54,986 nucleotides of DNA from Candidatus Cloacimonadota bacterium (GTDB taxonomy: Bacteria; Cloacimonadota; Cloacimonadia; Cloacimonadales; JAJBBL01): positions 1 to 54,986 of the forward strand of contig JAHYIR010000011.1 in the NCBI GenBank assembly GCA_019429305.1, given 5' to 3'. Shown piece after piece: positions 11,886 to 18,582 of the stretch. Numbering within the stretch: the stretch's first letter is position 1; the number at the start of each line of letters is the position of its first letter. The translations under genes were made by a program, and so were the position numbers. Below the pieces are notes generated by a model. That model did no database searches, was not told where the DNA came from, and was given only the letters and a program-made list of their open reading frames with translations.

Positions 11886-11961
11886 GCATCCGTAGCTCAG
11901 TTGGTAGAGCAGCTGACTCTTAATCAGCGGGTCTAGGGTTCGAGTCCCTACGGGTGTACCA
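11886..11961 (+). tRNA. tRNA-Lys (anticodon CTT)
   Basis: A complete 76-base cloverleaf with encoded CCA. The acceptor stem is GCATCCG/CGGGTGT with two G-U pairs. The D-arm is GCTC/GAGC, the anticodon stem GCTGA/TCAGC has loop CTCTTAA, and the T-arm contains GGTTCGAGTCC. Its 3' part is repeated in direct orientation at 18547, making this the left edge of a possible genomic island. Confidence 0.95.
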
Positions 11962-11966
11962 TTTTT
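11931..11966 (+). repeat. Left copy of a tRNA-Lys 3'-end direct repeat (possible attL)
   Basis: The 36 bases cover the T-arm, 3' acceptor strand, CCA and a T5 run. They match 18547-18582 at 32 of 36 positions in the same orientation, with about 6.6 kb between copies. Integrating elements often use exactly this part of a tRNA gene. Confidence 0.55.
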
Positions 11967-12123
11967 GTATGCAGGCTTTCAAGCTCTAAGATTGCTTTGT
12001 GAACTGTTTTTAAGTTATTGGAGAAACGTTATCGGATCTCTCTTTGGTTCTTAGCAAAGAATGACCTCCTTTGATTTGTTCTTGCTGTGATTTAACTAAC
12101 CGATCCAAAGAAAAACTTCTTCA

Positions 12124-12152
12124 TTGACATTACTAACATTCTCTGAAGAATT
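12124..12152 (+). promoter_or_regulatory. Possible promoter of the glycan cluster
   Basis: TTGACA (12124-12129), a 17-base spacer and AGAATT (12147-12152) precede the small gene at 12222 by about 70 bases. The -35 is perfect and the -10 is weak. Confidence 0.35.
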
Positions 12153-12221
12153 GAAAAAACAGATGCGAGTATAGATATGAAATATTCCTCCTTTAACAGA
12201 AAAGAAAAAGGAATCTCCTTT

Positions 12222-12497
12222 ATGGAAGATAAGGAGAAATATCACGGTGCTGCAATCTTTGAAGAGCAGTTAACAGAAGCCGTACAGGAACCCGGCTATG
12301 AAAATGATCTAAACTATTATCGAGATTTACATCATGCTTTTCAGTCTTCTCCTTTATGTTCTTTAAGAGATACAGAAAAGTATGATCTTCAAGAGGGTAA
12401 ACCAGTTGATAATCATTCTGACTGGGGCAAAGCTGTTGCAGATTTAGTAAAATTTAATAAAAGAAAGGCAAATACGCCAAGCAGAGTAGAATTATGA
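12222..12497 (+). CDS. Small hypothetical protein leading the glycan cluster
   Basis: Unrecognised soluble protein of 91 residues, rich in acidic and polar residues, with no signal peptide or membrane helix. I chose ATG 12222 because AAGGA precedes it by about eight bases; the in-frame ATG at 12177 has no ribosome site. Its TGA overlaps the ATG of the glycosyltransferase at 12494, so the two are almost certainly translated together. That argues for a real gene, perhaps a partner or regulator of the enzyme. Visible segments include a Tyr-rich stretch (PGYENDLNYYRDLHHAF) and a basic tail. Confidence 0.65.
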   Translation: MEDKEKYHGAAIFEEQLTEAVQEPGYENDLNYYRDLHHAFQSSPLCSLRDTEKYDLQEGKPVDNHSDWGKAVADLVKFNKRKANTPSRVEL

Positions 12498-15672: not shown

Positions 15673-15681
15673 ATCAATATA

Positions 15682-16692
15682 ATGAAGCTTGCCGTATTAG
15701 CACCGATTGCCTGGCGTACACCCCCCGTTCATTACGGTCCATGGGAACAGATTGCTTATAATATCGCCGAGGGCGCTTACTCTCTGGGGATTGATGTCAC
15801 CCTCTTTGCTACTGCAGATTCTTTTTGCTCAGGTAAGCTGCAACATATCTGCCCTAAAGGTTATGAAGAAGATAGAAACATTGACCCCAAAGTTGCTGAG
15901 TGTATGCATATCAGTTTTCTGATGGAGCAGGCAGATAAATTTGACCTTATCCACAATAACTTCGATTTCCTACCCTTAACCTATAGCAGACTGATTAAAA
16001 CTCCGATTTTGACGACTATTCACGGCTTCTCCTCACCTAAGATTATCCCTGTATATAAACGATATAACGGCATCGTCAAATATGCCTCTATCAGCAATGC
16101 AGACCGTTCCGGGGAGCTGGACTATATTGCTACTGTTTATAATGGTATAGATAAAAAACAATTCACTTACCATGATAAACCTGAAGATTATCTACTATTC
16201 TTTGGTCGTATTCATCACGATAAGGGAACTTACGAAGCGATTGAGATAGCAAAACAAGCCCAAAGGAAGCTGATCATTGCCGGAATAATTCAGGATAAAG
16301 AATACTTTAAGCAGAAGGTAGAACCCTATATAGATCAGGAGCAAATAGTCTTTGTCGGTAGTGCTGAGCCCGAAAAGCGGAATACTTTGTTGAGAAATGC
16401 CTATGCTCTTTTACATCCCATAAATTTCCAGGAACCTTTCGGCTTAAGTGTGGCAGAATCAATGTTCTGCGGTACTCCGGTAATAGCGTTCAATAAGGGT
16501 TCAATGCCGGAATTGATCATAGACGGTGTTAATGGATTTCTAGTAAGTAACATCTCTGAAGCAGTAGAAAAAATCAGAGATATTCCCCATATAGACAGAA
16601 GACAATGCCGTGCTTTCGCAGAAGAGAGATTTAGCCTGGAAAAGATGTCAGCCGATTATTATCAAGTCTATAAGCAAATCCTGAATAAATAA
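15682..16692 (+). CDS. GT4-type glycosyltransferase
   Basis: This 336-residue GT-B glycosyltransferase of family 4 has a nucleotide-sugar site typical of the family. The N-terminal motif is PIAWRTPPVHYGPWEQIAYN. LTTIHGF, YNGIDKKQF, LLFFGRIHHDKGTYEAIEIA and the E-rich donor loop NFQEPFGLSVAESMFCGTPV follow. It begins nine bases after the GH130 stop and has no visible ribosome site of its own, so coupling to the upstream gene is likely. It is about half the length of the other GT4 and lacks the helical extension. Substrate unknown. Confidence 0.88.
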   Translation: MKLAVLAPIAWRTPPVHYGPWEQIAYNIAEGAYSLGIDVTLFATADSFCSGKLQHICPKGYEEDRNIDPKVAECMHISFLMEQADKFDLIHNNFDFLPLTYSRLIKTPILTTIHGFSSPKIIPVYKRYNGIVKYASISNADRSGELDYIATVYNGIDKKQFTYHDKPEDYLLFFGRIHHDKGTYEAIEIAKQAQRKLIIAGIIQDKEYFKQKVEPYIDQEQIVFVGSAEPEKRNTLLRNAYALLHPINFQEPFGLSVAESMFCGTPVIAFNKGSMPELIIDGVNGFLVSNISEAVEKIRDIPHIDRRQCRAFAEERFSLEKMSADYYQVYKQILNK

Positions 16693-16884
16693 CTAAAACT
16701 AATCAGCTCAACTTTCCAGGATCCCGGCTGTTGATAAGACTTGCGTCTATCCGGAAAAGTCCCCCTAAGTAGTTGCAAAGCCACGTAGCGAAGTGTTCAA
16801 CGCTTTAGCTAGATCTTTATAATGCCGGAAAACCGTAAGTATGAAACCTCATTTCATTTGGTGGGTGGCAGGAAGAAAATGATT

Positions 16885-18345
16885 TTACTTCAATCTCTTT
16901 AGCAGCTCATTCAAATCCACATATGCCAGCGATGAATAGGTATCCGACATACCATAAGGTATGACAAGAGTATCACCATTAACAAAACTTCCACAAGAAT
17001 ATACCACATTGGGGACCAAACCTTCCCGTTCATTTTCATTTGAAATCAACAACGGTTCGGATAGACGACCGATCTCCTTTGTAGGATCTTCTAAATCAAG
17101 CAAGCTGGCACCTAAATCGTATTGCCGCATTGGGCCCACTCCATGAGTAATAATCAGCCATCCTTCCGGTGTTTCAATTGGCGAGCCGCAATTCCCTAAT
17201 TGAATATATTCCCAATAGTATTCAGGGGATTGTATTTGAATAGGGTCATCCCATATATTTATTTTTGCTGAGAATCCAATGTAGCTGTTTATTCCGTCAA
17301 TTCTCGACAACATAGCATACTTGCCTTTGATCTTACGGGGGAATATAGCCATATTCTTGTTCTGTGCTCCTCTACCATGCAACGGTCTGATCGTAAAATG
17401 ATAAAAATCTTTGGTCTCGATCAATTTCGGTAGTATCGTATGACCGTCATAGGCAGTATATGTCGCATAATAGATCGTAGAACCATCTTCCTCCCTGAAT
17501 TTAACAAACCTGGCATCTTCTATTCCTTTCCTTTCCGTGAAAGATATGGGAAATATTACTCGTTCGGATATATCTGTATCTTTGGAAAAGATAATCTCAT
17601 AATGAGAATCAGCCAGCCAGACAATCTCGTTTATAGCCCGTTTCTTACTTGAGCTGAAACTGTTGTTTTTTTCGAAGATCTCGGCAACAGCACCTAAAAG
17701 CTCCCCGTAAATGAAACGATCATTTAATCTATCCATCACTAATGATATATACTCTTTTGATACCTTCATCTCTTCCAATTTCTCGATGAATTGCGTTTTG
17801 TTGTATTCATGACGCTTGATTATCTCCGCTTCATCAATATATCTATTGGCTATCAAGAAATGGAGATCACCGTTTTTATCTATTACTCCCGAACGAAAAA
17901 CAATTGATGAAAGATGACCTTCTCCCATTGCCCGAAAACTCATAATTACTCTTTTACTGCCTTCTTCCAGACCGGTTTGATCAGGAGATTCCACTATAGA
18001 CGGGTTAAAAAAAGCTGTTGATTCAATTGAATATTCCTTGGAAAAAAAAGAGCCGATTAAAAGCTTCTTGGCCAAAGATAGTTCATCTAAAGAAATATCC
18101 GCTCTTTCCGCAATTTTACTGGCTTTTTCAAAGTTAGTCATAAATTGTTTGGTTAAGTTCCGGTGTCTTCTTGCATATTCGCGCAGGGTGGCTTCATTAG
18201 CCTGTTTTGCTTCTTGCTCGCTCATTGAGATGATTTTCTTTATCAAGGCGATAGAACGATCAAATCCATTATCATAATAAAGAATTATTACTCTGCGAAA
18301 GTCGGGTTCAAACCTGACAGGTTTTCTGATGACAGGAATAAGCAT
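16885..18345 (-). CDS. Second GH130-family protein, longer form with N-terminal extension
   Basis: A 486-residue cytoplasmic protein facing the glycosyltransferase operon. Residues about 1-120 are a helical extension. The GH130 propeller follows: SFRAMGEGHLSSIVFRSG, GIEDARFVKFREEDG, MAIFPRKIKGKYAMLSRIDG, NCGSPIETPEGWLIITHG and YDLGASLLDLEDP. This resembles the longer GH130 subgroup, distinct from the 311-residue neighbour. AGGAGG precedes ATG 18345. The two GH130 enzymes probably act on different linkages or chain lengths of the same glycan. The 192-base gap to the convergent GT4 shows no clear feature. Confidence 0.87.
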   Translation of the reverse strand: MLIPVIRKPVRFEPDFRRVIILYYDNGFDRSIALIKKIISMSEQEAKQANEATLREYARRHRNLTKQFMTNFEKASKIAERADISLDELSLAKKLLIGSFFSKEYSIESTAFFNPSIVESPDQTGLEEGSKRVIMSFRAMGEGHLSSIVFRSGVIDKNGDLHFLIANRYIDEAEIIKRHEYNKTQFIEKLEEMKVSKEYISLVMDRLNDRFIYGELLGAVAEIFEKNNSFSSSKKRAINEIVWLADSHYEIIFSKDTDISERVIFPISFTERKGIEDARFVKFREEDGSTIYYATYTAYDGHTILPKLIETKDFYHFTIRPLHGRGAQNKNMAIFPRKIKGKYAMLSRIDGINSYIGFSAKINIWDDPIQIQSPEYYWEYIQLGNCGSPIETPEGWLIITHGVGPMRQYDLGASLLDLEDPTKEIGRLSEPLLISNENEREGLVPNVVYSCGSFVNGDTLVIPYGMSDTYSSLAYVDLNELLKRLK

Positions 18346-18546
18346 TATCCTTCCTCCTTCAGTTCTATTCTATAACTGAAAAAAAGTTTATGCCCGTATC
18401 TCTCTCTATAAGTCAAGTTTTTTGTTATTCTCCACCCTTCCATGTTTATATAAACAATAATATTTAACTTCCTTCACTTAGGTCCATGATGCATCTTTTC
18501 GAAATGTCCATTTGTCTGTAATTCATCTCTTGATCTAAACTATCGA

Positions 18547-18582
18547 GTATAGGGTTCGAGTCCCTGTGGATGTACCATTTTT
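18547..18582 (+). repeat. Right copy of the tRNA-Lys 3' end (possible attR or pseudo-tRNA remnant)
   Basis: The T-arm, acceptor 3' strand, CCA and T5 run of tRNA-Lys are repeated here with 32 of 36 matches; no 5' half or anticodon arm is present. The acceptor strand reads TGGATGT, which would pair with a GCATCCA 5' strand, so the fragment may come from a different functional tRNA-Lys allele. The gap 18346-18884 has no gene; it also holds a 23-base palindrome at 18675. Confidence 0.65.

Follow-up and report, generated by a model that had tools for sequence, protein, structure and literature searches.

The window, a stretch of 54,986 nucleotides from a Candidatus Cloacimonadota bacterium (contig JAHYIR010000011.1), carries a tRNA-Lys gene, a glycan gene cluster, and, on the far side of that cluster, a copy of the 3' end of the tRNA. 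Did an integrative element bring the cluster to this site, or did the partial tRNA copy arise in another way? Integrative elements commonly use tRNA 3' ends as attachment (att) sites, and their insertion usually leaves a repeat of the tRNA 3' tail as its scar.

ARAGORN identified an intact tRNA-Lys(CTT) at 11886-11961 on the forward strand; tRNA-Lys(CTT) is also present in relatives. The 3' part of this gene forms the left, attL-like copy of a 36-bp direct repeat (11931-11966, forward strand), and the right, attR-like copy is located at 18547-18582 on the same strand. The two copies are identical at 32 of 36 positions, share their orientation, and span the T-arm, the acceptor end, CCA, and the T5 run. 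A preliminary description of this DNA had reported a full tRNA-Lys and a 32/36 tail copy in the same orientation; ARAGORN, the alignment, and a genome-wide search confirmed both. In that search, a tail pattern allowing up to 3 mismatches was found at just these two places in the whole 2.39-Mb genome, and a blastn search with the tRNA-Lys as query recovered the right copy with an E-value of 3e-7. The best unrelated 36-mer in the whole window, tRNAs excluded, matched at 20/36 positions. We used 400 kb of stretches from the same genome as background for repeats and composition; here the best 36-mer per 20 kb matched at 19-26/36 positions. The match between the two tRNA-Lys tails is far better than chance would give. 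Once past the T-arm in the upstream direction, the identity between the right copy and the tRNA-Lys drops to 0-5/10; because the identity stops there, the right copy is a truncated 3' end rather than a complete tRNA that has degenerated.

An IS256-family element lies just outside the repeat, at 18885-20304 on the forward strand (transposase 18992-20242, recognized with Pfam and NCBIfam). Its ends are 22-bp inverted sequences that are 86% complementary, and no target duplication of 7-12 bp was found. A lone sequence matching the right end of this IS is present elsewhere in the genome (G000:C3:162968-163000). The transposase gene starts only 410 bp to the right of the right tail copy, which raises the possibility that an IS256-family composite, or one-ended transposition, brought in the cluster, and that the tRNA repeat is a coincidence. 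However, there is one IS copy only, its inverted ends leave the glycan cluster outside, and the tail repeat far exceeds chance. We rejected the composite as carrier and consider this the least probable of the explanations weighed here.

The DNA between the repeats (11962-18546, about 6.6 kb) was said in the preliminary description to hold only GT4 and GH130 genes. These genes are indeed present, but they are not alone: 12177-12497, on the forward strand, encodes an internal fragment of a transketolase (approximately residues 245-341; NCBIfam transketolase, E = 8e-15, model positions 248-345 of 639), whose stop overlaps the start of the first GT4 gene. Aligned over 97 aa, the fragment shares 57% identity with the intact transketolase encoded elsewhere in the genome, and is too distant from it to be a recent duplicate. 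The gene that follows (12494-14740, forward strand) encodes a 748-aa fusion of a GT4 glycosyltransferase, assigned with Pfam, and a C-terminal helical domain. The GT4 half has a GT-B fold according to an AlphaFold model (pLDDT 80) and a PDB fold search conducted with this half only; the helical domain had no Pfam match in this protein. In Thermoclostridium, the two parts are separate neighboring ORFs (L077:9986-11161 and 11163-12197), and the separate C-terminal ORF has weak Pfam matches to the C5-epimerase and GH88 families. Further along on the forward strand are a GH130 gene (14737-15672) and a second GT4 glycosyltransferase gene (15682-16692, Pfam). The last gene, at 16885-18345 on the reverse strand and thus convergent to the others, encodes a GH130 protein whose N-terminus carries a long extension. 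Both GH130 proteins were assigned with Pfam and have NCBIfam and PDB matches to beta-1,2-mannobiose/oligomannan phosphorylases that are below the NCBIfam equivalog cut-offs; by sequence, the pair are predicted beta-1,2-mannoside phosphorylases.

A Pfam/NCBIfam profile search of the ORFs between the repeats returned no match to integrase, relaxase, or coupling-protein families, which bears out the earlier remark that no integrase is present there. Genome-wide, there are just two Phage_integrase proteins, both in 303-aa frames, a size that makes them appear Xer-like. Inspection by eye of the translated frames in the gaps between the island genes revealed no long open frame that could be an integrase relic. 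Intact integrative elements have an integrase, and the loss of it is a common fate of integrated ones. A comparison of the composition of the island, suggested in the preliminary description, was negative: GC content and tetranucleotide usage are ordinary, and the tetranucleotide distance of the island was exceeded by 70 of the 111 background segments. Atypical composition is common in tRNA islands; it is not required.

The comparison within the same family is with one genome, G001, a MAG that is 88% complete. In G001, the 3' end of the tRNA-Lys is located 19 bp from the stop of a heavy-metal P-type ATPase gene, and the two are convergent, as in the window, where the host ATPase gene is at 20485-22641 on the reverse strand. 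Among 59 genomes, none has a closer match to the ATPase in the window than G001 (56% identity; the next best has 51%). The ObgE encoded next to it is the closest to that of the genome under study (66%), and therefore the G001 contig belongs to the family. None of the other tRNA-Lys loci examined has this ATPase as a neighbor, nor was there a tRNA at any of the other ATPase loci examined. G001 encodes neither GT4-748 nor GH130-486. The synteny, however, is limited to the tRNA-ATPase pair. The left flanks differ; beyond the ATPase, G001 has ObgE and DprA where the window has RadA, RibF, and TruB; and between the right copy and the ATPase the window has the IS256-family element plus another 490 bp or so, versus 19 bp between tRNA and ATPase in G001. 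As the loci differ beyond the pair and this DNA intervenes, the empty site is strong for the tRNA-ATPase pair yet one-sided. A relative in which the tRNA-Lys is joined to the sequence right of the island had been predicted; G001 provides one at the level of neighboring genes, and on one side.

We searched 107 genomes of the order for partial tRNA-Lys tails, and among the matches listed only one other was recognized, in G003. It is located at a contig edge: positions 1-126 of L132 (G003:C263) comprise 45 nt of the tRNA-Lys 3' end and 81 bp of downstream DNA, and they are identical at 126/126 positions to 2454-2579 of the contig with the intact tRNA-Lys (L088, G003:C2). Primase and helicase genes lie behind the tail in L132. 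The overlap of 126 bp could equal the assembler's k-1; we take it as the likely point at which occupied and empty alleles diverge within one MAG. An apparent second tRNA-Lys tail in G062 was rejected, being a 141-bp overlap between contigs. Scattered tRNA fragments, which the preliminary description had named as evidence against an island, were not seen; partial tRNA-Lys tails are rare among the listed matches. In G038, the tail of a tRNA-Arg(TCG) is repeated directly at a distance of 11.6 kb (L131, G038:C242, 47-11711), with a tyrosine integrase beside that copy, and DnaG-like primase and AAA_25 genes; this is a typical tRNA island.

These comparisons bear on whether site-specific recombination was involved at all. 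A duplication of the tRNA-Lys, or an ectopic break, could have left the right-hand tail, with the glycan cluster interposed by ordinary rearrangement. Such a history would agree with the lack of an integrase, the ordinary composition, and the rearranged flanks of the tRNA-ATPase pair relative to G001. On the other hand, the copy begins in the T-arm and closes with CCA and a run of Ts, which is the typical form of an att site in a tRNA; the other partial tRNA-Lys tail recognized among the listed matches is in a contig that resembles an integrative element; and the tRNA and ATPase genes are joined in G001. We consider a duplication or rearrangement unlikely, at something like one chance in seven. 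Of the two origins put forward in the preliminary description, the G001 junction and the rarity of partial tails favor an old island that lost its integrase over a remnant of duplication.

The cargo is patchily distributed. Of 40 genomes, only three, including the one under study, encode a full-length GT4-748 homologue, and the same three are the only ones out of 59 in which a full-length GH130-486 homologue was found; G014 has a further copy of GT4-748 at 38% identity. The cargo homologues within the order are 61-64% identical, values that are not by themselves proof of transfer. The Ignavibacteriae MAG fen_1257 (L072), from another collection, has the complete set of four genes, arranged and oriented as in the window, the first GH130 gene being split by a frame change. 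An island had been considered doubtful should the same gene order recur in all relatives; the order differs among them. No tRNA was present beside the homologous clusters (L071-L074, L096, and L097) in the stretches examined. This last result speaks against the possibility that nothing has been lost from the element, which would then be a small passenger without an integrase of its own, moved by one supplied in trans. That no second copy of the element was found at a tRNA, and that the four mismatches in the repeat and the gene scrap look old, argues in the same direction. A passenger of this type would have kept both att-like sites, as is the case here, and the order does contain a tRNA element with an integrase and a junction of an element with tRNA-Lys; nevertheless, we consider it very improbable. 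We consider it equally improbable that a minimal element lacking an integrase, with both tRNA-Lys att sites and moved in trans by the integrases of other elements, carries a beta-mannan storage or salvage module between families of the order.

The best explanation, to which we assign a probability of about three in four, is that 11962-18546 is an old tRNA-Lys(CTT) integrative element of which attL, cargo, and attR are left. It accounts for the repeats, the missing integrase, the one-sided empty site in the same family, and the patchy cargo. Because neither an integrase nor a relic of one was found, we infer the integration mechanism from the scar, including the insertion by an integrase, the crossover, and the type of enzyme; descent from an ICE or IME is presumed. 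The element would have entered the 3' end of the tRNA-Lys(CTT), where a tyrosine-type integrase would have made a crossover within the T-arm between the tRNA-tail copy of the element and the host gene. In this exchange, the tail supplied by the element would have completed the tRNA on the left, and the original tail of the host would have been displaced to the right end, at 18547-18582. The integrase and transfer genes would have been lost later, leaving two att-like repeats around a GT4/GH130 cluster of beta-mannoside type and a scrap of a transketolase gene.

Which tail is the host's may be reflected in the acceptor stem. In G001, G006, and G014, the acceptor of the tRNA-Lys has CGGATGT as 3' strand and GCATCCG as 5' strand. 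The 3' strand reads CGGGTGT in the left copy versus TGGATGT in the right copy, which has one further change in the T-stem. Compared to the tRNAs of G006 and G014 (and, for the acceptor strand, also that of G001), the left copy has 1 change, at acceptor base 69, and the right copy has two changed bases, 65 and 66. The right copy has GGATG in common with the tRNA-Lys of G001, a relative from the same family, and therefore fits a displaced host tail. This is weak evidence for the suggested polarity, since it comes from one site and the CGGGTGT of the left copy is common elsewhere in the order. The preliminary description had remarked that the right copy fits a 5' strand of GCATCCA, as if it came from another tRNA-Lys allele. 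A second allele is not needed, because the G001 tRNA pairs GGATG with the normal GCATCCG strand.

Cis-mobilizable elements (CIMEs) have been reported at the 3' end of tRNA-Lys CTT in Streptococcus agalactiae; classical CIMEs are 1.2-13 kb in size, and carbohydrate metabolism is among the known cargo (PMC7563491, PMC5704250). The island in the window resembles them in its att-like repeats of a tRNA 3' end around cargo, the lack of integrase and transfer genes, its size, and its carbohydrate cargo; the tRNA species is the same, although the phylum is different. A parent ICE or IME was not found among the relatives examined, nor was an element in tandem. The tRNA-Arg element of G038 is similar in having a direct tail repeat from T-arm to CCA and in belonging to the same order of bacteria; however, it has retained a tyrosine integrase next to its distal tail, as well as primase-like and AAA genes, whereas the element in the window has none of these. 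With this locus, tRNA-Lys(CTT) is on record as an integration site in an order that has received little study, and occupied, relic, and empty states are seen in different genomes. An old island without an integrase or a composition signal was recognizable from the tRNA tail and one relative with an empty site; detectors that rely on an integrase or on composition would miss such an island. The finding is otherwise ordinary.

The gene content has a parallel in the Teth514_1788/1789 locus of Thermoanaerobacter, which was proposed to salvage mannose phosphate (PMC4264767). Both combine two GH130 phosphorylase genes with a GT4 mannosyltransferase-type gene; in contrast to that locus, the block in the window encodes a GT4 joined to a helical domain and a second GH130 protein that is greatly extended at its N-terminus, and contains no guanylyltransferase or ABC transporter. 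To the left of the tRNA, at 6286-11128, three neighboring proteins have type IX secretion sorting tails.
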